A stretch of 33,065 nucleotides of DNA. It comes from Candidatus Brevefilum sp. (lineage in GTDB: Bacteria; Chloroflexota; Anaerolineae; Anaerolineales; Anaerolineaceae). The position numbers were made by a program, and so were the translations under genes. The DNA is taken from positions 1 to 33,065 of the forward strand of contig JARGGB010000034.1 of assembly GCA_029210815.1 (NCBI GenBank), in the 5' to 3' direction. Position 1 is the first letter of the stretch, and each line of letters begins with the position of its first letter. Below the pieces are notes generated by a model that was not told the DNA's origin, ran no database searches, and saw only the letters and a program-made list of their open reading frames with translations. Below are positions 17,874-29,921 of this stretch, piece after piece.

Positions 17874-20800
17874 TCAATCAATTGTAAACAAGTTACCAGC
17901 TGAAGTGCCCTGAACTTCGGGATAGAAGTACATCCAGGCACGGCTGGGTAAAACCTGGAAGGTTCCTCGCTGGAAGGGGACCAGGGTATAAACCAGGGTG
18001 TAGGTTCCGGCCGGCACATAATCCGCCGTCCACAGGATGTGGTCATCATAGATTTGCGGCTGATTAAAGTACCACCACCCCCATCCATGTTCAAAAGGCG
18101 ATCGAGGATGATAAATATCAATCGGGGATTCCTGAACTGTTTGCGATGTCAGAAAGTCCTGGTTGAGAATTTCTGTTCCTGAGGGGATGAAATCCTCCAG
18201 CATCAAATTGATCATATCGCTGGACAGGGTGAGCGTCAGGGCAGCAGTGATCATTTCTGAAGGACCATCCGCACCCAGGGATATTGTATCAATTGGTGTG
18301 CAATCATCCCTGCCGGGGCAGCCCGTACCGGAAAGGTAATATGTCCGTTGAATGGTAATCCCCCTGTTAATCGCCTCAGCGTCAGCTGCTGGTTGATAAG
18401 TCCGCAAATCGACACGATAATACAATGTGCCAGGGCCGTCCCCCCGCTCAATCACCAATGCATTTGGTGACTCCGGATACAGATCAAGGATTGAAGTGCT
18501 TGTTTTTACGCTGGTCGAATCGGCTTCTCCTTCTGCAAAAAGGCGATCATTCAAAAATGCCTGGAATGGGTAATCAGCCTGGTAATCCCCAGTCCCTTTT
18601 AACGCGGACGTGGCAGCAATCAGCACCCAGGCAGATTCAAATGGCGAACTGGCAGGGTTCAAGGCGTTTCTATGGGTCATCAAATAACGCAATGCCGGAA
18701 CCAGGCTTGTTGAGGCAGGGTCAAGTGCTGAGAGTGTCAGCACGCCTACAGCGGTGTTAAAAAGCGGTGTTCCCGGCAGCATCCACGAAACCTCCTGGCT
18801 CTCCCAGTGGACGCCCGTTTCAGACCGAACGGCAGCGGCTTCCAAATCGCCAAGCAAGACGTTAAGCCGTGCAGAAGATCCCTCAATTTGGTCCAATGCC
18901 AGGGTGAATAAACCCAGTGCCCAGGGATTCAGATCCGATCGGCGATTGTAGACGGCAGCAATGTAATTATCCAGGCTAAAATTGCTCTCTCGTAAAGCAT
19001 ATATCTGGAAAGCCAGGCGATCCAACGCCCAGGTTTCCTCAATATTTCCGGGATCAATAAGATGATAGAAGAGATATTCAAAAGCTCGATCCAGGTAATA
19101 ATCGCCAACCTCAAACCCTGCATGTGAGGCAAGCTGCAAACCATGGAGGACGTAAGCCGTAATGAAGGCATCCGAGCTGAGAAAACCTGCTCCCGAACCA
19201 CCCCACCACGACCATCCGCCGTCAAATTTCTGGATTTCCAATAATTCTTGCAGGCTCTCAGCAACCAGGATGGATAAGTCTGATTCGAGCTGCGGTGTTT
19301 CAATCCCCAGGTCCTGTAAAGCCTGGTAGGTATTGACATTTGCCAGCATTCTCGAGACGATTGAGATCGTATCTGAAAAACTTGGTGAATCAAAGGCTTG
19401 CAAGGTATCAAGAATGGACGCGGTCAGGGACGGCTGTAATTCCAGTGAAAGGGAACCGGATGATGGATCGGTTGAAATTGGCAAACTGACCAGTTCCAGC
19501 ACCTGCCCTTCTTCCTCAATCTGACCCGCTGTACTGAAAGTAGCAGGCATCGCATACCGCAGTACTTGCAAGTCTCCCCAAACCGGTTTTGCAGCATCTT
19601 TGTACCCATCTGATTTAGCCTGGAAAATTAATTCGACACTTTCCTGGCTTTCTACCAGGCACCACCAGGTAACCCGGGCATTTGTACCGGCATCAATAAC
19701 AAGCGTTTGGCTCTGGTCTGTCCCTGCTTCCAATGTGAATCCGCTTCCCAGAAGCGAAGCCTCAACTTCCAATGACTCTTCTGTATTGTTATGAATAATT
19801 GCTGCCAGTTCGACCCGGTCGCCATCAACCAGGAAACGAGGTGTGACAGGCCGCACCATTAATTCCTTTTGGGTAATAATCTCTCCCTCTGCCTGCCCGA
19901 CCAGGTAATCTTCAGTCAATCCACGCACATCCACCACCCAGGTGGTCAGTGAATCCGGCAGTGGAATTGTGAGCTGGGCAGTCCCATCAGATCCTGTCAC
20001 AACACGTCCTTCCCAAAGGGCTGTGTCAGGGAAGTTTTCCCGCAGAGACTTTTCGGCAGCCATGTCGCCCCCGCCGCCGCCAATCCCCAATTCCGATGTT
20101 AAGGCAAGCTGCATGGCGTAGGTCTTTAGTGAAAAGGATGTCTGTACTGCGAGCGGTTGACTGCTGTAAAAGGCATCCAAAATCGGCTGGCTGTTAGGCT
20201 CAATCAGTGCCAGCAAAGCCTTATCAACAACAGCAACGGAAAACTCGCCCTGCACCGGATTTCCCTGCAGATCGGTAATCAGCAGTTGGGCAGAAACAGG
20301 CGCACCTGGGGTTGTGACTTGCGGGTTAAGGATCAATTCAACATTCAGGGTTTTACTTTCTGGTGAAACCTTGATGTTATTTATCCCCTGTCGGAAACCT
20401 GGATTACCATCCTCATCCCGCCCGAATAACATCACCGACAAATAAACATTTGGAATGGAGTCGCTGGTTATTGGGACCTCAAGGGAATAGCCCGAATCCC
20501 TTACCTCAACAACCTGTGTTTCCATTACCTGCCCTCTTTCAAGGGTGATCAATGCTGTTGCATCACCCGGGAAGGGGTTCGGGAAGAAAATACTGGCGCT
20601 TTGACCGGGCTGGTAAAGCTCGGCATCCGATGTTAATTCAATCAGGTTTTGTGTTCGCCTGGGCCAAACCGCGGTACCCTCGCCTGCTGCCCAAACCAGA
20701 GACTCGGTCACTGCATTACCGGATGTGACAGTCAGCAGGTAGGTGCCTGGCTCAGGTGGAACAAAAGACAGTCGTGAAAGCCCATCATCTCCCGTAATTG

Positions 20801-23800
20801 GGTTCGCTGTGTCGATCAAGGTTTTTCGTTCGACGTATTGGTAGGGCATTTCCATCCTGCCAGTTTCCTCGACCTCCCACTCAATCGCCTCAAAGGAAGC
20901 TTCCAGAGCAAGCTGTCCAACTGGCTCTTGTTCCCAATCAACCGTCAAAATCGTGAAGGAGAAGGCGGTGTTCACATTCCCGAAATAGGTTTCTGGCTTG
21001 ACCCCGATATAGAAAGTATCAGGATGAATCTTTGCTGATTCCCGGTAAGAAACGGGAAACCCACTTTCATCGGATATTGTAAATTCGAGGGTCAGTTCCT
21101 GCAGTCTGCCAGCCAAAGCTTCTTCCAGCGCTATATCTGCTTCTGAGAAGACAAGGTTTGACTGCCCCTTTTCATCAGTAAACCCCTCTCCAAACGCAAC
21201 ACGCTCACCAAGAACAGAATACTCTGGCAAGCGCGGCATGAGCCAATCCGAGCTCGTCGGTCCAACCTGGTAACCCGGGAGTTCAAACCGTCCTTCATCC
21301 CTGTAGAGCGACCATGTATAGCCTTGGTCTGCAACCGGCAGCCCAAAATAATAAGCTGCTTGCAATTGGGCGTTCAAATCCTCCCCAAAAACAATCTCAT
21401 CCGGGGTCAAATCCAGCGTGAGTTCAATTTCAGGTTTCCGATATGCAGCGACATCAAAATACAGGCTTTCAATCGCTTTTTCTCCCTGTGTCAGGGCAAT
21501 CTGGAACATGCCGGGGGAGGCATCCGGGGGGATATCAACGCTTCCTTCCAGCGTGCCAAATTGGCTCAGCGTGAGCGTGTTGGTATAAAGGTTCACTGGG
21601 ATTCCCGACATACCCGGGTCACCATACACAGCCACATCCACCTGGTCCATGCCTGAAGGTACTGGTAAGCCGTTTTCTCGTGAAAACAAAACAGCCTTGA
21701 AATGCACCCTGTCGCCTGGGCGATAAATCGGCCGATCCGTATAAATATAAGCTTCAATTTCTCTCGGCAGGGTGTTTTGTCGGATACCCTGTTCATAAAG
21801 CACATAACCCTGCCCCCAGGTCGAAATTGAAAAAGCAAAGTCATCCTGCCCTGGTTTGCCAATCACTGCCAGGAAATTGGCGTAAGGTTCCTCAGCCCTT
21901 GTGATGTCTTCTATGAAAAAACCTTCTGAATCCGTTTCTCCACTGGCAAGAATATCCCCTTCTGAGTTATAAACCGTCACGGGTGCCCCTGCCAGGGGAG
22001 TTTGATCAGACAAGGCCGTTCCCCAAATAAAGGCTTGCTCAGGTGCAATCTTCATAACAGCATGATTGTCACTGACGATCAGGTAGTATCTTTGATAAAC
22101 CTGTTCACCATTCTCGACCAAATCAGCTGACGTCATTCCAAGAAAATACACGCCTGGAGATAATGGATTTCCCTGGTAGGTGAGGGGCAGCCGCACAGCC
22201 TGGTTGATATTTCGTGTCAACTCAAGATTGTGCGTGCTTGTTTCTAAGTTGCTGGGCAAGAACATTTGCCGGTATTCATAATTATCCGGATGTACCAGGG
22301 TAAGCAGATCACCCACCGTGATGGGGCCAATTTCAAAGGTCAGGGTATTAATATTCGTTGCCTGCAAAACAACATCAGAGCTTTGAGCAGGAACAAACAT
22401 CAGATTATAGCTGGTATACCCGGTGACCAAACTGAGGGCAGGATCTGCTGATGGCGTCACAAAAGTGTAAGATAAGGTTCGTCCTAATGCTCCGCCCCAT
22501 CGATCTTCTAAATTTGGGTCCAGCGTCAGCGTATATTCTGTGTCAGGTTTGAAATAACCATTCAAAACAAGGTTCATGTCATTGTTACTCAACTGCAAAC
22601 CTACAGAACCCACTTCTGGATTGATTTGAATATGATCCTTAAAATTCTGTTTGGAAACAGGGGCTGTTAACTGGATCTCATACTGACCATACTGCCCATA
22701 ATAGCTCCTGAAATCAGGCTGCACTGAGGATAAAACATTCAGCCCAGGATAGGTCGTCCGCCAGGTTTCAAAAGGTACGTCAACTGGCAAACCACCGTAG
22801 GACTGCGCGCCGGAATCAAGCCTGATGTCATAGCGAGTGTTTCGATCAAGATTGTCTTCCGGTGTAAATAGAATGCCCTGGAAATCTTCCTGCCATTCAA
22901 AACGACCGTTGACTCTTCTCCCGTTTGGCGCAAGCAGGTAAAAATGCTCCTCAACACTTTGCTTGTCCATTCGAATATTAAACCTGACTTCTATTGGACC
23001 GTCCAAACTCAAAAGCTCTGACCCAATCGGCAGCACCTCCAAAACCTGGGGTGTTGTTGTTGTAAAGCTAAACGCAAGATCCTGTGTATCGAAACCAGCG
23101 CCAGAGGTGCCCGTCAATGACTCGTTGAGCGTGATATTATAGGTGGTACCGCCAGTCATCGAGGGTTCAGGTCTGAAAACATAAGTGGTCGTATTAAGCC
23201 ATGTGCCTTCCCCGGGGACTTCCGGTGAAAGTGAAAACGCAGGCGGACCTGCTTGCTCTGCCCCCAATGGAACAACAGGCTGGTTGAATGTTACAAAGAC
23301 CAGGCTCTCAGGATCAACATCCTGGGCAAAGTCCACTGGCATCACTTGCAAGGCTAATAATTCGTCTGCAGTCTGATAATTGACATCAACAGGTGCTTGT
23401 AAGCCCTTTTTGTTCGCTGCCTGGGCACTGGTATCAATGACCATAGAAATCTCAGTACCCGGCTCAAGATTTTGGTCTGGCGTAAAGGTAAGGATCTGGT
23501 CATCTTCCCATGAGAAACGCCCGTTGACTCTTGGTTCAAAATGTATGGCAGCTTCAACGGAACCGGTGTCCATTGCCTGATTGAAATAAAGGGAAATCGA
23601 CTGATTTAGGCTGATGGCACTGCCAGAAACAGGAGAAACCTCCACGAGGGCAGGCGGCAAATCCAGACGGGGTTCTGATGTCGCTTCAGGTTCATCTTTC
23701 CTGACCTCGACACTCTCAGGCGTTGATAATTCCTTCGATCGTCCCCAGGGCAAATTGCACCCGGCTAAAAGGCTAAAAATGGTTACAAGTGAAATTACTA

Positions 23801-23846
23801 CTTTTATCCAATGAAGGTGAGATTTTCTATTCGGCAAAATAATCAT
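17874..23846 (-). CDS. alpha-2-macroglobulin-like lipoprotein without a thioester motif
   Basis: Bacterial alpha-2-macroglobulins are large envelope proteins thought to trap proteases. This one is about 1990 residues. The lipoprotein signal ends LLAGC with Cys30; GAGGAG seven bases before the ATG at 23846 supports this start over one 18 codons upstream. Domains in order: three SbsA/Big_5-type Ig-like repeats (about 65-360), macroglobulin domains with the MG2 signature YTDRPIYRPGD (about 702-712), the AVVDKALLALIEP stretch, the A2M signature FPDTALWEGRVVT (about 1272-1284), then the toroid domain with KFDGGWSWWGGSGAG. The thioester C-x-E-Q is absent: the aligned slot reads FDSPSFSDTISIVSRMLANV. 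The protein has only four Cys (Cys30, one in TWWCLV, two in CPGRDDC). No pbpC gene is adjacent. A terminator-like hairpin sits in the leader. Confidence 0.9.
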   Translation of the reverse strand: MIILPNRKSHLHWIKVVISLVTIFSLLAGCNLPWGRSKELSTPESVEVRKDEPEATSEPRLDLPPALVEVSPVSGSAISLNQSISLYFNQAMDTGSVEAAIHFEPRVNGRFSWEDDQILTFTPDQNLEPGTEISMVIDTSAQAANKKGLQAPVDVNYQTADELLALQVMPVDFAQDVDPESLVFVTFNQPVVPLGAEQAGPPAFSLSPEVPGEGTWLNTTTYVFRPEPSMTGGTTYNITLNESLTGTSGAGFDTQDLAFSFTTTTPQVLEVLPIGSELLSLDGPIEVRFNIRMDKQSVEEHFYLLAPNGRRVNGRFEWQEDFQGILFTPEDNLDRNTRYDIRLDSGAQSYGGLPVDVPFETWRTTYPGLNVLSSVQPDFRSYYGQYGQYEIQLTAPVSKQNFKDHIQINPEVGSVGLQLSNNDMNLVLNGYFKPDTEYTLTLDPNLEDRWGGALGRTLSYTFVTPSADPALSLVTGYTSYNLMFVPAQSSDVVLQATNINTLTFEIGPITVGDLLTLVHPDNYEYRQMFLPSNLETSTHNLELTRNINQAVRLPLTYQGNPLSPGVYFLGMTSADLVENGEQVYQRYYLIVSDNHAVMKIAPEQAFIWGTALSDQTPLAGAPVTVYNSEGDILASGETDSEGFFIEDITRAEEPYANFLAVIGKPGQDDFAFSISTWGQGYVLYEQGIRQNTLPREIEAYIYTDRPIYRPGDRVHFKAVLFSRENGLPVPSGMDQVDVAVYGDPGMSGIPVNLYTNTLTLSQFGTLEGSVDIPPDASPGMFQIALTQGEKAIESLYFDVAAYRKPEIELTLDLTPDEIVFGEDLNAQLQAAYYFGLPVADQGYTWSLYRDEGRFELPGYQVGPTSSDWLMPRLPEYSVLGERVAFGEGFTDEKGQSNLVFSEADIALEEALAGRLQELTLEFTISDESGFPVSYRESAKIHPDTFYIGVKPETYFGNVNTAFSFTILTVDWEQEPVGQLALEASFEAIEWEVEETGRMEMPYQYVERKTLIDTANPITGDDGLSRLSFVPPEPGTYLLTVTSGNAVTESLVWAAGEGTAVWPRRTQNLIELTSDAELYQPGQSASIFFPNPFPGDATALITLERGQVMETQVVEVRDSGYSLEVPITSDSIPNVYLSVMLFGRDEDGNPGFRQGINNIKVSPESKTLNVELILNPQVTTPGAPVSAQLLITDLQGNPVQGEFSVAVVDKALLALIEPNSQPILDAFYSSQPLAVQTSFSLKTYAMQLALTSELGIGGGGGDMAAEKSLRENFPDTALWEGRVVTGSDGTAQLTIPLPDSLTTWVVDVRGLTEDYLVGQAEGEIITQKELMVRPVTPRFLVDGDRVELAAIIHNNTEESLEVEASLLGSGFTLEAGTDQSQTLVIDAGTNARVTWWCLVESQESVELIFQAKSDGYKDAAKPVWGDLQVLRYAMPATFSTAGQIEEEGQVLELVSLPISTDPSSGSLSLELQPSLTASILDTLQAFDSPSFSDTISIVSRMLANVNTYQALQDLGIETPQLESDLSILVAESLQELLEIQKFDGGWSWWGGSGAGFLSSDAFITAYVLHGLQLASHAGFEVGDYYLDRAFEYLFYHLIDPGNIEETWALDRLAFQIYALRESNFSLDNYIAAVYNRRSDLNPWALGLFTLALDQIEGSSARLNVLLGDLEAAAVRSETGVHWESQEVSWMLPGTPLFNTAVGVLTLSALDPASTSLVPALRYLMTHRNALNPASSPFESAWVLIAATSALKGTGDYQADYPFQAFLNDRLFAEGEADSTSVKTSTSILDLYPESPNALVIERGDGPGTLYYRVDLRTYQPAADAEAINRGITIQRTYYLSGTGCPGRDDCTPIDTISLGADGPSEMITAALTLTLSSDMINLMLEDFIPSGTEILNQDFLTSQTVQESPIDIYHPRSPFEHGWGWWYFNQPQIYDDHILWTADYVPAGTYTLVYTLVPFQRGTFQVLPSRAWMYFYPEVQGTSAGNLFTID

Positions 23847-23898
23847 CGCCAGCTCCTCATTTTGATGTTGCGTAAATCCCCAAATAATTGATAATGTC

Positions 23899-23924
23899 AA
23901 AAAATGCCCTTGGTGAAAAGGGCA
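23899..23924 (-). terminator. terminator-like hairpin upstream of the macroglobulin gene
   Basis: On the minus strand TGCCCTT (complement of 23918-23924) and AAGGGCA (complement of 23905-23911) form a 7-bp stem with a six-base loop, directly followed by six T (complement of 23899-23904). It ends the leftward HAD gene transcript or attenuates the macroglobulin leader if the promoter at 23942-23947 is real. Confidence 0.65.
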
Positions 23925-25542: not shown

Positions 25543-27159
25543 TCAATCAAGATCCTTGATCATGTAATAATCCCCCAGCTTATAGCCGCGATCCGCATAA
25601 TAGCCGCGGGTACCAACAGCAGCAATCACCGCTAATTTTCGATAGCCGGCATCCTTTGCAATGCTTTCTGCTTCTACCAGTAACCGTGTCCCCAATCCGC
25701 TGTGCTGTGCCATACCCGAGCGGTCTTCCCCCACCTCCAGTGACTGACCATAAACGTGCACTTCACGAATAATCGCAGAATCTTCCAATTCTCCAATGCC
25801 GCTCATCTTTGTGTCTGTTGGTAATGATAAGCGCAGAAAACCAGCCAAATGATCATCTGTGGTGTCAAAGGAAAGGAAATGCTCCTCTACATGGGCAGGC
25901 TTGTAAACAAGATCATTCAGTTCGACTTTTTCCGCTGAAACCTGTTGTTTCCGGATTTCCCTGCAGCGAATGCATTTGCATTTTGTCCCGCGTTTTGACA
26001 TTTCTCGCTGAACATCCTGGCGCAAGCTGCTGTTTTTATTGCCTTCCACAACATAAGTGGAGGGAATGTCCCGAATAATGCGGTTGATACGACAGTATCG
26101 GGGGACATCAGTTTTTATATCGGTAATCAGGTCCAACAGTGTTTCTTCGAAATATGGCTGATACTGACCGATCTTCCAAATATCATAGAGCTCTGTGTTT
26201 TCAAGCAGCTGGCAGGGATAAATTTTCAGTTCATCCGGGCAGTAAGCGCCATCACCCCATAAATGTTTGAAATCCTCCCGATCCGATTCCGGAGTCGCGC
26301 CTAATAAATTTGGCATCCAGTGCAAAACAACCTTGAAGCCCCCGGCACGTAATAATGCCGTCGCCTCCAGGGTCTCCTGAGCTGTGTGGCCGCGTTTATT
26401 AATTTCAAGAATTTGGTCATCCAGGCTCTGGGCACCCAATTGAACCTTGGTCACCCCCAGGTATCGATACCAGCGTAAGGCATCACGATTCACAAGGTCG
26501 GGCCTGGTTTCAATCACCAGCCCCACGTTGCGGTGTTTGGCATTCACATTTTGTTTTTGCGCTTCTTGCAATGTTTCGAATTCAGGAATATCGTCAGGGT
26601 TGACCTCGTTCATCGCCTCAAAGCAGCGCCGAATAAACCATTCCTGATAATTTCGCGGATAAGCGCTGAAGCTCCCCCCTAAGATCAACAACTCAATTTT
26701 ATCGGTGGGGTGACCCACTGCGGTCAGCGCACCAATCCGATTTTTGACCTGTGCGTAAGGGTCAAAATTATTTTGCAATCCGCGCATCGCGCCCGGTTCC
26801 TGGCGCAAATAGCTCTTTGGCATTTGGTCTTCCTGGGGGCAGAAAATGCATTTGCCAGGACAGGGATGAAAACGGGTCAAAACGGTGACCGTGGTCACAC
26901 CCGACAGGGTCCGGGTTGGTTTCATGCGGATTTTTAACAACAACGCGTCATCCTCATCCCACTGACCGCTGTTCACCATTTCATGGTAGACCGCTACCAG
27001 GGCGTGCTTGGGGATAAAGCCCCCGCCATCCGGCTTAGGGTGCTCCCGCTGGGACGTGCTCAGGTCAAGACCCTTCTTCAGGTCTTCTAATATTGCCAGC
27101 GCCAGGTCTTTTTCAACCTTGCTGTAATTTCGCTTCTTTTGCCAGCTCTCTGCTTTCAT
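25543..27159 (-). CDS. elp3: Elp3-family tRNA U34 carboxymethyl-modifying radical SAM/acetyltransferase
   Basis: Elp3 uses a radical SAM domain and an acetyl-CoA-binding GNAT domain to put a carboxymethyl-type group on C5 of the wobble uridine of tRNA. The 538-residue chain has both: the cluster ligands CPGKCIFCP (Cys100, Cys104, Cys107), GGSFSAYP and GAQSLDDQILEINKRGHT in the barrel, a zinc-type CKCIRCREI (near 380-390), and the acetyltransferase QHSGLGTRLLVEAESIA with GYYADRGY at the C-terminus. The N-terminal basic region binds tRNA in homologues. A single-subunit Elp3 is known from Chloroflexota (Dehalococcoides). A GTG two codons upstream (27165) is an alternative start; a -10 box eight bases before the ATG suggests a near-leaderless mRNA. 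A Trm9-like methyltransferase lies 2 kb away. Confidence 0.93.
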   Translation of the reverse strand: MKAESWQKKRNYSKVEKDLALAILEDLKKGLDLSTSQREHPKPDGGGFIPKHALVAVYHEMVNSGQWDEDDALLLKIRMKPTRTLSGVTTVTVLTRFHPCPGKCIFCPQEDQMPKSYLRQEPGAMRGLQNNFDPYAQVKNRIGALTAVGHPTDKIELLILGGSFSAYPRNYQEWFIRRCFEAMNEVNPDDIPEFETLQEAQKQNVNAKHRNVGLVIETRPDLVNRDALRWYRYLGVTKVQLGAQSLDDQILEINKRGHTAQETLEATALLRAGGFKVVLHWMPNLLGATPESDREDFKHLWGDGAYCPDELKIYPCQLLENTELYDIWKIGQYQPYFEETLLDLITDIKTDVPRYCRINRIIRDIPSTYVVEGNKNSSLRQDVQREMSKRGTKCKCIRCREIRKQQVSAEKVELNDLVYKPAHVEEHFLSFDTTDDHLAGFLRLSLPTDTKMSGIGELEDSAIIREVHVYGQSLEVGEDRSGMAQHSGLGTRLLVEAESIAKDAGYRKLAVIAAVGTRGYYADRGYKLGDYYMIKDLD

Positions 27160-27167
27160 ACGCACCC

Positions 27168-27197
27168 ATTGTACCCATTATTCATGATCAATGCGAA
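27168..27197 (-). promoter_or_regulatory. promoter of elp3 (near-leaderless)
   Basis: TACAAT (complement of 27168-27173) and TTCGCA (complement of 27192-27197) are 18 bases apart on the minus strand. The -10 box ends eight bases before the ATG at 27159, giving a one- or two-base leader. Confidence 0.5.
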
Positions 27198-27309
27198 TAG
27201 CACCCTTTAAACCTTATATAATCTTTTTACAATAAATTGATGATGGTCTAATATTAAGATGAGATACTGGATATCAAGAATAGTAGATAAATAATTTAAA
27301 GGTGCAAAC

Positions 27310-28419
27310 ATGAAAAGCTCCATAAATCTCGGAAAAATATTTGGGATTGACCTGAAAATGAACATCACCTTTCTGTTTTTGCTGCTGTGGGTGGGATTTT
27401 CCAGCCTGTTTTCAGGCGCATCAGCAGGTGCTGCAGTAACAGAAATCGTATTTATCATTGCCTTATTTGTGCTGGTTGTCTTGCATGAATTGGGTCATGC
27501 GCTAATGGCAAAGCGATATGGGATCAAAACACAGGACATCACCCTGCTGCCGATAGGCGGTTTGGCGCGGCTTGAAAAAATGCCTGAAGATCCAAAACAG
27601 GAATTCTTTGTAGCCATCGCCGGACCGGCTGTCAATTTAGTGATCGGCGCCTTGCTGTTCGTTGGGCTCTTATTAAAGGGTTTTTTCAACCAGCCTTTCA
27701 GCTTTGCCCTGCTCGAAGAAAATCTCTGGATGCAGCTGCTTACAGCAAACATCACCCTGTTCCTCTTCAACCTGATCCCTGCTTTCCCCATGGACGGTGG
27801 ACGCGTTTTGCGGTCTTTGCTGTCTCTGCGCATGGATCCTGTCAAAGCAACCAGCATCGCGGCCAATATTGGCAAAGGCGCAGCACTGCTTATCGGCCTT
27901 GCAGGGTTCTTTTTCAACCCCTGGCTGGTATTAACGGCGATTTTCATTTGGGTAGGTGCAAAATCAGAAGCAGATTCTGTCAGGATTCAGGCAAGCATCA
28001 AAGGCTTGCAGGTACAGGATGCCATGATGACAAGATTCTTCCAGGTCGAAGGCAACCAATCCCTGGAGTCAGTGCTGAACTTATCGGTACAATCCGGTCA
28101 GCATCACATCCCGGTGACATCCAACGGTCATTTCCTGGGGATCATTCAACGACAGGGCTTGCTTAACGCGCTTCAGCGGCTGGGCAACCGTGCCCCCGCT
28201 TATGCAGCGATTGGAATCGAGCCGGAAGGGCTATCACCAACAGCACCGCTCAAAGACGCCCTGGAAAGCATGAAGAAAACTCGCGTGCAGCCCGTGATCG
28301 AGAATGGGCAATTAATCGGATTGATCACACTTGAAAGCATTCAGCAGCGTATGTGGCTGGATCAGAAGATGAAAAATTCACAAAATCCTTCTCCAGATGA
28401 AAAAACGGACATGGTGTAA
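27310..28419 (+). CDS. site-2 protease family (M50) membrane metalloprotease with CBS pair
   Basis: Cuts membrane proteins within the bilayer, often to release transcription factors or to remove remnant signal peptides. The 369-residue protein has zinc-binding HELGH at 59-63 in the third hydrophobic segment region and the second motif NLIPAFPMDGGR with Asp162, the usual pair of M50B (SpoIVFB-like) enzymes. After the membrane part (about 1-220) come two CBS domains (about 230-350), which bind adenine nucleotides in related proteins and so could tie activity to energy status. AAAGGTG lies six bases before the ATG. It is divergent from elp3 across 150 bases. Substrate unknown; no anti-sigma factor is adjacent. 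Confidence 0.92.
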   Translation: MKSSINLGKIFGIDLKMNITFLFLLLWVGFSSLFSGASAGAAVTEIVFIIALFVLVVLHELGHALMAKRYGIKTQDITLLPIGGLARLEKMPEDPKQEFFVAIAGPAVNLVIGALLFVGLLLKGFFNQPFSFALLEENLWMQLLTANITLFLFNLIPAFPMDGGRVLRSLLSLRMDPVKATSIAANIGKGAALLIGLAGFFFNPWLVLTAIFIWVGAKSEADSVRIQASIKGLQVQDAMMTRFFQVEGNQSLESVLNLSVQSGQHHIPVTSNGHFLGIIQRQGLLNALQRLGNRAPAYAAIGIEPEGLSPTAPLKDALESMKKTRVQPVIENGQLIGLITLESIQQRMWLDQKMKNSQNPSPDEKTDMV

Positions 28420-28453
28420 GGACATCTTCACAAAGTAAAAAATATTTTAAGAT

Positions 28454-28503
28454 TACCTAACCTTAAAAACCCCTTCCCTTCAGGGAGGGGGCAGGGGGTA
28501 GGT
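28454..28503. repeat. GC-rich imperfect palindrome after the site-2 protease gene
   Basis: CCCCTTCCCT (28470-28479) pairs with AGGGAGGGG (28482-28490) with one bulged base, and outer TACCTAACC and GGGTAGGTA extend it imperfectly. There is no T-run on either side, so it is more like a dispersed palindromic intergenic repeat than a terminator. The 218-bp spacer around it shows no other feature. Confidence 0.45.
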
Positions 28504-28637
28504 AAAATTGGATTTATTATAATACACTGGCTGGGGGAAGGCTTTGCTGCACGCTTCAACTGCGTCACAAATACGGCGTATAATCCTGGTATCATAGACA
28601 TAAAATAGTTTTTATATCCTCATCATTGGAGAGCCTC

Positions 28638-29141
28638 ATGAAGCGCTGGTACCTTTATGCATTGATCGGATTGATCTTTGGCATCTTTGACTGGTTTTAC
28701 CTGGATTGGCTGGCAAGAGGTCTTAGCCCGAACCTTGGTGAAAATCCATTTATCGTCATCCCCATCATCCTGGGGCTGAATTATGGGATCTGGCTCGTAC
28801 CCATCATCCCGGTGACCCTTTATGAAGCAAATCGAGCGAAGACCATCAAAAGCCCGATTTTTGCCGGCATCCTCACCTGGAGCTGCGCAATCCTCAGTTA
28901 TTACATTTTTTATGCCTTCCTCTTATCCCTTGGCAGATTACCCAATTTAGAACATTTAAATATTTTTGGCCAAAATTTTGAAAACGTCCGGCCTGAGTAT
29001 TGGCGAATGTTCAATCGTATTATCCTGTTCCAATTTCTTGAATGGACCCCGATCGCCGTCATTGGCGGCGGAGTTGCCGGTGCAATTGCATGGTGGGTAA
29101 TTCGCAGATTCAAGCATCCAAAATCCAAATTCACAAATTAA
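28638..29141 (+). CDS. small integral membrane protein, unknown function
   Basis: A 167-residue protein with about four hydrophobic segments (roughly 3-22, 38-60, 75-97 and 128-152) and a basic C-terminus. The motif DWFYLDWLARG and several conserved-looking aromatic residues lie in the first loop. I do not recognise the family. The frame is open from 28626, but GGAG six bases before the ATG at 28638 and a hydrophobic MKRWYLYALIG start favour this one. The Trm9-like gene follows 48 bases later with its own promoter. Confidence 0.7.
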   Translation: MKRWYLYALIGLIFGIFDWFYLDWLARGLSPNLGENPFIVIPIILGLNYGIWLVPIIPVTLYEANRAKTIKSPIFAGILTWSCAILSYYIFYAFLLSLGRLPNLEHLNIFGQNFENVRPEYWRMFNRIILFQFLEWTPIAVIGGGVAGAIAWWVIRRFKHPKSKFTN

Positions 29142-29150
29142 ATAACACAT

Positions 29151-29179
29151 TTGCGCTGTCTCAAAGACTGCAATATACT
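29151..29179 (+). promoter_or_regulatory. promoter of the Trm9-like gene (near-leaderless)
   Basis: TTGCGC (29151-29156) and TATACT (29174-29179) are separated by 17 bases, good consensus geometry. The -10 ends ten bases before the ATG at 29190, leaving a leader of about three or four bases without a ribosome site. Confidence 0.6.
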
Positions 29180-29189
29180 TTAGTTCACC

Positions 29190-29921
29190 ATGAATTCAGC
29201 TACTCGAGATAAATTATTAGCCATCAATCGCGAATTTTATGACCAATTTGCGCATTCTTTCAGCGCAACCCGCCACCAGGTTCAGCCGGGGGTACACAAT
29301 CTGATCCACCAAATGATACAAAGCGAGACAATCCTGGATGTCGGCTGCGGCAACGGCACCCTGGCAAGGATGCTGGCGGCTGAGGGTTTTCAAGGCAGCT
29401 ACCTGGGGCTTGATATGAGCGAGGGCTTGCTCACCAGCGCTAAGGAGTTATTTGAACACCCATCAAAAGGAACTTTCAATTTCATACCCCTTGACATGGC
29501 TGACCCCAATTGGCATCAATCTCTCCCTGGAAATGCTTATGACTGGTTGGTTTGTTTTGCCGTCCTGCATCACATCCCGAGAGAAGAACTGCGCACACAA
29601 ACAGCTCGCAATTTTGCATCCCTGGTGTCAAATACAGGACGGGTTGCCCTTTCTGTCTGGCAGTGGCAAAACAGCCCCCGTCTGAAAAAACGGGTGGTTC
29701 CGTGGTCAACGGTGAACATTGACCCGGATAACCTCGATGAGGGGGACGTCTTGCTGGATTGGCGTTCAGGGAAAACAATTGGCTATCGCTATGTGCACAC
29801 CTTTACCGAAGAATCTTTATTTATTCTCGCCAAAAAGTCAGGGTTCAAAGTGATTGAAAATTTCTATTCCGATGGCAAAAAAGGCAATCTTGCCCTTTAC
29901 CAAATCTGGCAGTTGGTATAA
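29190..29921 (+). CDS. class I SAM methyltransferase resembling Trm9/ALKBH8 tRNA methyltransferases
   Basis: The 243 residues have motif I ILDVGCGNGTLARML (48-62), LGLDMSEGLL (72-81) and AVLHHIPREE (124-133). Beyond the generic fold, several features match the eukaryotic Trm9/ALKBH8 group that esterifies carboxymethyl-U34 of tRNA: the N-terminal YDQFAHSFSATRHQ (compare F-S-x-T-R in Trm9), CGNG in motif I, the DMSEGL acidic strand, WxW after the VxLS strand, and the late YRYVHTFTEESL (compare RYYHxF-x-EL). The closeness is judged by eye and the activity is not proven; a small-molecule or other RNA methyltransferase remains possible. Elp3, which makes the carboxymethyl group, is encoded about 2 kb away, but the genes are not in one operon. 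No Trm112-like zinc partner is in the window. Confidence 0.65.
   Translation: MNSATRDKLLAINREFYDQFAHSFSATRHQVQPGVHNLIHQMIQSETILDVGCGNGTLARMLAAEGFQGSYLGLDMSEGLLTSAKELFEHPSKGTFNFIPLDMADPNWHQSLPGNAYDWLVCFAVLHHIPREELRTQTARNFASLVSNTGRVALSVWQWQNSPRLKKRVVPWSTVNIDPDNLDEGDVLLDWRSGKTIGYRYVHTFTEESLFILAKKSGFKVIENFYSDGKKGNLALYQIWQLV

Follow-up and report, generated by a model that had tools for sequence, protein, structure and literature searches.

The window analyzed here, a 33,065-nucleotide stretch of DNA, is one contig of a 2.66-Mb Anaerolineae-type Chloroflexota genome (Candidatus Brevefilum sp.). It carries a gene for Elp3 and, close by, a gene for a Trm9-like methyltransferase; see Table 1 for the features of this locus. 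The original prediction, made from the DNA alone, proposed that these two enzymes act in sequence on the tRNA wobble uridine (U34), giving 5-carboxymethyluridine (cm5U34) and then 5-methoxycarbonylmethyluridine (mcm5U34). The methyltransferase open reading frame (ORF) of 243 amino acids (aa) is present at 29190 as described, and the two genes do lie on opposite strands with two others between them, an M50 protease gene and a gene for a 171-aa protein. The elp3 ORF was also borne out, although its start codon is a GTG, which puts the end coordinate at 27165; the 27159 given earlier is an ATG two codons further in. The 171-aa protein had no Pfam or NCBIfam matches, and neither it nor the protease is thought to be part of the proposed pathway.

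Table 1. Features of the elp3 and methyltransferase locus, in window positions
Feature	Position	Strand	Basis and predicted role
elp3, radical S-adenosylmethionine (SAM)/GNAT enzyme, 540 aa	25543..27165	-	TIGR01211 and PDB Elp3 matches; predicted cm5U34 maker
Elp3 cluster cysteines C102, C106, C109 (CX3CX2C), CPGKCIFC	26839..26862	-	Aligned to CPGKCIYC of a Dehalococcoides-type Elp3
M50 metalloprotease with CBS domains	27310..28419	+	PF02163, PF00571; between elp3 and methyltransferase
171-aa protein, no family	28626..29141	+	Between elp3 and methyltransferase
Trm9-like class I SAM methyltransferase, 243 aa	29190..29921	+	Pfam Methyltransf_23/25/12/11; 5cm2_Z top PDB match; predicted cm5U34 esterifier
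Methyltransferase R28 codon	29271..29273	+	Aligned to yeast Trm9 R29
Methyltransferase GCGNG 52-56, SAM-binding motif I	29343..29357	+	G52, C53 and G54 invariant in 58 homologues
Methyltransferase H127-H128	29568..29573	+	Aligned to Trm9 HH (H115 in review)
Methyltransferase R200-Y201-V202-H203	29787..29798	+	Aligned to Trm9 RYYH (R241, Y243)

The window Elp3 scored 513.7 bits against TIGR01211 (cut-off 350), with residues 62–539 aligned to positions 38–522 of the 522-position profile, and it matched nine PDB Elp3 sequences at E values of 8e-116 to 6.5e-82. An alignment to a same-numbered Dehalococcoides-type Elp3 shows that the three cluster cysteines are conserved, as are K77, K193, E386, and Y441 of the Dehalococcoides mccartyi enzyme (DmcElp3). 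These four residues are listed for the acetyl-CoA pocket of DmcElp3 in PMC6367351.

In a PDB sequence search, the methyltransferase was matched best by Trm9 from the Trm9-Trm112 complex (5cm2 chain Z, E = 1.5e-7), and the alignment spans residues 26–227, from the N-terminal TR through the RYxH end. Two family profiles were also built, A1 from 58 window-type proteins and A2 from 20 proteins of a Dehalococcoides-side family described below. Omitted from A1 were L011 and L022 (the same genes as in L030 and L009), L021 (the window itself), L039 (in which an in-frame TGA was reported), and the short contigs L043, L047, and L019. Both profiles again have 5cm2_Z as their top PDB match, at E = 4.3e-14 for A1 and 1.2e-21 for A2. 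Among the best 60 of 389 chains matched by A1, 5cm2_Z is aligned over profile positions 25–223, and the remaining 59 stop at or before position 160; with A2, further chains (3mgg, 3l8d, and juvenile hormone acid methyltransferases) extend to about 195–205 too. The C-terminal 73 positions of A2 alone, searched against 177,635 PDB sequences, matched 5cm2_Z at E = 2.8e-5, with no other sequence below 0.4. The two families also resemble one another, as the full profiles match over 191 columns (E = 1e-25) and the C-terminal profiles match at E = 4.1e-11. All 23 NCBIfam families that the methyltransferase matched scored far under their cut-offs. A structure predicted from three sequences (the window protein and two relatives) had a mean predicted local distance difference test score (pLDDT) of 36 and was unusable.

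The Trm9-type motifs that had been noted in the methyltransferase are present as FSATR (residues 24–28), CGNG (53–56), and AVLHH (124–128). The RYxH end (YRYVHTFTEESL, residues 199–210) was not quite as described, since it continues as F-x-E-x-x-L, one residue longer than the F-x-E-x-L reported. Across the 58 homologues, R28, H128, W157, D186, W191, R200, and Y201 are invariant. The positions given to yeast Trm9 residue numbers on this alignment are putative, as is the choice of H115 within the HH pair. In yeast Trm9, the substitutions R29A, H115A, R241A, Y243A, and N271A have a strong effect on tRNA affinity and turnover (PMC5372719). The equivalents of R29 and R241 (R28 and R200) are found in all 58 window-type and all 20 Dehalococcoides-side proteins. 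Of the HH pair, H127 is kept in 47 of 58 window-type proteins (Q in 11) and H128 in all 58, and both histidines are kept in 20 of 20 on the Dehalococcoides side. The Dehalococcoides-side proteins also have Y at the Y243 position (19/20) and N at the equivalent of N271 (N212, 20/20). By this alignment, the Dehalococcoides-side proteins keep the predicted counterparts of all five tRNA-binding residues, with Y243 in 19 of 20, and the window-type proteins keep those of three of the five. The window protein resembles Trm9 in its layout, but because a tested Trm9 feature (Y243) is missing, we call it Trm9-like and do not file it as Trm9.

We scored the presence of both genes in 298 genomes of the class, taken as Anaerolineae, from tables compiled by hand from profile searches. 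The limits were E < 1e-25 for Elp3, E <= 1e-10 for the methyltransferase, and E <= 1e-60 for MnmG. Elp3 is found in 170 genomes (166 of them above the family cut-off) and the methyltransferase in 155. Both genes occur together in 153 genomes, Elp3 alone in 17, the methyltransferase alone in two (G214 and G249), and neither in 126, which gives a Fisher p of 4e-62 when kinship is ignored. As a rough correction for kinship, we counted by family in the 289 genomes with an assigned family. The methyltransferase is found in 28 of 31 families with Elp3 and in 0 of 28 families without it (p = 1e-13); the nine genomes outside this count are the MnmG-bearing G195, G261, and G296 and six more. At a loose Elp3 limit of E 1e-3, 269 of the 298 genomes match. 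We take the weak matches to be other radical SAM proteins, because Escherichia coli and Bacillus subtilis match the model at 1e-3 and not at 1e-30.

The 17 genomes with Elp3 alone belong to families f12 (six), f24 (four), f37 and f41 (two each), and f39, f55, and f59 (one each), and incomplete assembly may explain some of the single cases. At 14 of the 17 loci, several of them short or at a contig edge, the window-family profile found no ORF at E 1e-3; G096, G129, and G257 fell outside this set. Upstream of elp3, the f12 loci have a histidine phosphatase gene (identified by Pfam in L072 and by eye in L077, L078, L081, and L084; L071 is uncertain) and the f24 loci a glycosyltransferase gene (by Pfam in L074, by eye in L075 and L076). 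In L073, the long frame that precedes Elp3 looks like a spurious extension, and the fusion reading was dropped. G194, which has Elp3 and no window-type enzyme, carries a gene for a 294-aa methyltransferase that immediately precedes elp3 in the same orientation (L079:2089-2970, minus strand). The N-terminus of this protein looks by eye like a Trm112-type zinc ribbon, and Pfam sees the methyltransferase part alone. It is unmatched by the window-family profile and weakly matched by the Dehalococcoides-side profile (16 bits).

In the 130 class genomes with a listed position for both genes, the pair is divergent and no more than 3 kb apart in 100. The spacing is within 500 bp in 77 of these, 501–1000 bp in 15, and 1001–3000 bp in eight, one of which is the window. 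In the other 30 genomes, the two genes are on different contigs (25), divergent but farther apart (three), convergent at a distance of 641 kb (one), or near one another on the same strand (one). A piece of Elp3 also adjoins the methyltransferase in the fetched loci of G030, G081, and G144. L009 and L010 likewise have the M50 protease between the two genes, as does L023 at least in part; the 171-aa protein was matched over 137 residues in L023 and 41 residues in L010 and was not found in L009. As a synteny control, we used 20 loci from within the class (4.5–9 kb each) and 20 from outside it (3.3–5.6 kb each), all chosen for the methyltransferase or Elp3. Six window neighbours (HAD, PAP2, M50, the 171-aa protein, ZIP, and an RlmI-like protein) were found in 0 of these 40 other loci of a few kb each. 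Elp3 was found in 16 of the 20 class loci and in 20 of 20 outside the class. Therefore, over these few kb, the pair is not background synteny.

The pair also extends beyond the class. Among 251 sampled phylum genomes, 45 have Elp3, comprising 25 of the window's class and 20 outside it. All 20 outside-class genomes, the Dehalococcoides-like ones included, have a divergent Trm9-like methyltransferase within ~300 bp of elp3. These proteins are 212–241 aa long, with one frame of 282, and as locus ORFs they match the window-family profile at E = 8e-16 to 1.3e-20. When the profile was searched genome-wide through the 251 genomes, four of the 20 (G303, G398, G433, and G468) passed E 1e-15, and that level was also passed by many other methyltransferases on the core alone. 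For this reason, position counts beside score in the outside-class calls. The Elp3 of one locus (L098) matches the crystallised D. mccartyi Elp3 (5l7j) over 458 of 459 residues, with an E value of 1.2e-293.

Co-occurrence across Chloroflexota had been suggested as a check on the link between the two genes, which was then put down to proximity only. The check came out in favor of the link, as 153 of the 155 methyltransferase genomes carry Elp3. Together with the family counts (28/31 against 0/28) and the divergent neighbours in and outside the class, this makes "proximity only" too weak a description. Gene order and presence could hardly make a stronger case for a functional link between the two. 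Sequential action of Elp3 and the methyltransferase is likewise supported, through the co-occurrence, the adjacency, and Trm9 as the top PDB match, and mcm5U would be the product judging from the chemistry of Elp3 and Trm9 and the conserved residues.

Furthermore, Elp3 alternates with MnmG. Of the 298 class genomes, 67 carry MnmG, and none of these is among the 170 Elp3 genomes (p = 4e-31, uncorrected); in the phylum sample, 99 of 251 genomes carry MnmG, again none of the 45 with Elp3. Combined as distinct genomes, 191 have Elp3 and 164 have MnmG, with an overlap of zero, and no family in the class table has both. The window's own genome has no MnmE above the cut-off (the top match reached 128.8 bits against 252.6, over profile positions 204–369 only) and no CmoB above the cut-off (best 30.8 bits, cut-off 275). 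It does encode MnmA and a 73-aa Trm112 protein (G000:C22). Separately, 61 class genomes (of 298) lack both Elp3 and MnmG at these limits, including 19/19 of f6, 9/9 of f13, and 3/3 of f11.

We propose that Elp3 would place a carboxymethyl group on carbon 5 of U34, and that the Trm9-like methyltransferase, with SAM, would methylate the free carboxylate of cm5U34 to give mcm5U34. In thiolated tRNAs, for which the genome encodes MnmA, the product would be 5-methoxycarbonylmethyl-2-thiouridine (mcm5s2U34). In these Chloroflexota, the two enzymes may replace the common bacterial MnmE/MnmG route. Esterification of the carboxymethyl group at U34 is quite probably the main function of the methyltransferase. 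We also lean, with more reserve, toward a wider view in which much of Chloroflexota (Anaerolineae and the Dehalococcoides-containing group), without MnmE/MnmG, makes mcm5U34 or mcm5s2U34 by way of Elp3 and a Trm9-like enzyme. On this view, the Dehalococcoides-side protein would be genuinely related to Trm9, and the window enzyme would belong to a branch that has diverged and rebuilt part of its pocket. What each enzyme does and which acts first are inferred, and the bacterial Trm112 protein may be a partner.

The proposed pathway has parallels in several known systems. The eukaryotic mcm5U34 route of Elongator and Trm9-Trm112 or ALKBH8 likewise relies on Elp3 for catalysis, and its methyltransferase shares the TR...HH...RYxH layout. 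However, the window protein is without the Y243 of Trm9, and the genes here are divergently paired. Elp3 alone, as a single gene, occurs in bacteria and archaea (PMC6367351, PMC13315578), and archaea such as Haloferax and Sulfolobus have a Trm9 homologue alongside their single-gene Elp3. The elp3 and Trm9 genes cluster in S. solfataricus, and Trm9 homologues are found in a limited subset of archaea (PMC2584109); archaeal U34 derivatives are listed in PMC6313347. DmcElp3, described as a rare bacterial example (PMC6367351), is a single-gene Elp3 from the same phylum as the window, and its close relatives have a divergent Trm9-like neighbour. That neighbour differs from the window enzyme, as it belongs to a second, shorter branch (212–241 aa in 19 of 20 frames) that is nearer to Trm9 by profile score. 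The MnmE/MnmG route, with MnmC or MnmL/MnmM, leads to 5-carboxymethylaminomethyluridine or 5-methylaminomethyluridine, (c)mnm5U34, and also acts on carbon 5 of U34 in bacteria. However, it uses other enzymes and makes another side chain, and MnmG was present in no genome counted as Elp3-bearing.

In PMC7663514, bacterial Elp3 is described as found in one clade, Dehalococcoides, with direct evidence for its U34 product lacking, and PMC5372719 states that Trm112-dependent methyltransferases have no detectable bacterial relatives. Among the best matches listed in the open-licence literature, we found no report of a bacterial Trm9 with Elp3, and the excerpts of the DmcElp3 literature make no mention of a Trm9-like neighbour. 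Here, Elp3 is found in 170 of 298 genomes of a class other than the published clade, where it alternates with MnmG and has a conserved Trm9-like partner. Such a partner also lies beside close kin of the Elp3 that serves as the bacterial structural model, and it could be the second enzyme that has been missing. The product of bacterial Elp3 becomes a directly testable question, and the pattern suggests one wobble-uridine system substituting for another and a eukaryote-style modification in bacteria.

Several observations weigh against an mcm5U34 pathway of this kind. At the Trm9 Y243 position (202), the window protein has V, and the window-type proteins have V, C, A, or T, with Y in 0 of 58. 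For N271, the candidate is N233, an asparagine that 15 of the 58 window-type proteins have, and its alignment is uncertain. The lead of Trm9 in the PDB searches is small, with the runner-up chain, matched on the core, near 5cm2_Z at E = 6.2e-14 for A1 and 2.6e-20 for A2. The C-terminal profile of A1 alone gave no PDB matches up to E 10. Elp3 can evidently be retained without the methyltransferase, because 17 of the 170 Elp3 genomes are without it, chiefly in f12 and f24. One genome, G120, has MnmG together with a weak Elp3-model match (E = 1.5e-21), which by our reading is under the cut-off and was excluded from the Elp3 count. Finally, Trm112 is found in 234 of the 298 class genomes, and because it is so common in the class, we dropped it as specific support.

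The phylogenetic trees add to these difficulties. They were built from 18 of the 58 window-type and 12 of the 20 Dehalococcoides-side proteins, chosen by hand for spread, with E. coli CmoM, UbiG, BioC, and CmoA and three of eight methyltransferase paralogues from the window's own genome for comparison (the rest failed a clean-ORF filter). In the full tree, the Dehalococcoides-side family, Trm9, and a haloarchaeal relative group at 85/69, and the window family is not firmly placed, with a very long UbiG branch adjoining it at a support of 40/26. A single clade of all Elp3-linked proteins with Trm9, tested on the full set, was no worse (approximately unbiased test, p = 0.426). In a reduced tree, from which UbiG and one own-genome protein were removed after the first tree had been viewed, both Elp3-linked families and Trm9 group at 93/86. 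In the reduced tree, CmoM groups with the rest of the comparison set (93/86), and its place is not fixed in the full tree. The trees are weak because of the long branches, and they leave the Trm9 grouping and orthology of these proteins unsettled. Grouping with Trm9 or with unrelated methyltransferases was one of the checks named in the original prediction. The PDB searches favor Trm9, which is the top match of the single sequence and of both profiles, but the trees do not decide the matter, with the window family beside UbiG at 40/26 in one and with Trm9 at 93/86 in the other.

Other roles for the methyltransferase have to be weighed against esterification of cm5U34. It could act on U34 after Elp3 and yet have mcm5U as an ester intermediate, or form some other cm5U derivative on the way to 5-carbamoylmethyluridine (ncm5U) or an aminomethyl group. 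We regard this as unlikely, though ncm5U34 is present in the archaeon Thermoplasma acidophilum according to PMC5372719 and PMC6313347, and the 17 Elp3 genomes without the methyltransferase suggest that the end product may vary. However, no third gene keeps with the pair among the six window neighbours in the 40 loci, a comparison in which amidating enzymes were not searched for and the other neighbours of the loci were not intercompared. It is improbable, in our view, that the methyltransferase regulates or partners Elp3, or acts on another tRNA position or on the Elp3 protein, with chemistry unlike that of Trm9. The absence of Y243 from the window family would fit such a role, as would its lack of PDB matches for the C-terminal part alone and the stretch before its RYxH end, which is longer than in Yarrowia and in the Dehalococcoides-side proteins. 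However, the window protein retains R28, the HH pair, and R200 and has Trm9 as its top PDB match, and the family that takes the same position on the Dehalococcoides side has the putative counterparts of all five residues and a matching C-terminal profile.

An unrelated small-molecule methyltransferase of the UbiG, UbiE, or BioC type, near elp3 by chance, is very improbable. The Pfam domains are generic and the long UbiG branch lies beside the window family in one tree, but the scores for UbiG (39.9 of 102.95 bits), UbiE (31.7 of 216 bits), and BioC (33.2 of 184.95 bits) are all far under the curated cut-offs, and these candidates were rejected; the co-occurrence and adjacency with elp3 strongly disfavor them as well. 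CmoM and MnmL/MnmM are wobble-uridine routes that include a methyltransferase, and MnmL/MnmM also includes a radical SAM protein, so the methyltransferase could be imagined as a CmoM-like esterifier of uridine 5-oxyacetic acid (cmo5U34), or the two genes as an MnmL/MnmM-type (YtqA/YtqB) pair acting on cmnm5U. We give these readings next to no credence and dropped them, as the window's own genome has no CmoB above the cut-off and no MnmG or MnmE by our limits for making cmnm5U, Elp3 reaches just 58.7 bits against the MnmL cut-off of 180, and CmoM goes with the comparison proteins in one tree.

Beside this locus, a 2008-aa frame (17874-23900, minus strand) looks by eye like an alpha-2-macroglobulin type lipoprotein, a call made with no search. 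Mobile elements were also scanned for relatives of the methyltransferase. Viral contigs searched with the Dehalococcoides-side alignment gave none. A plasmid search with the window protein gave one haloarchaeal relative, and a search with a Trm9 fragment gave the same haloarchaeal record and five partial matches. This relative of Trm9 and the window protein is encoded on a Natronorubrum bangense megaplasmid (L116:3518-4228), where it is annotated just as a class I methyltransferase.

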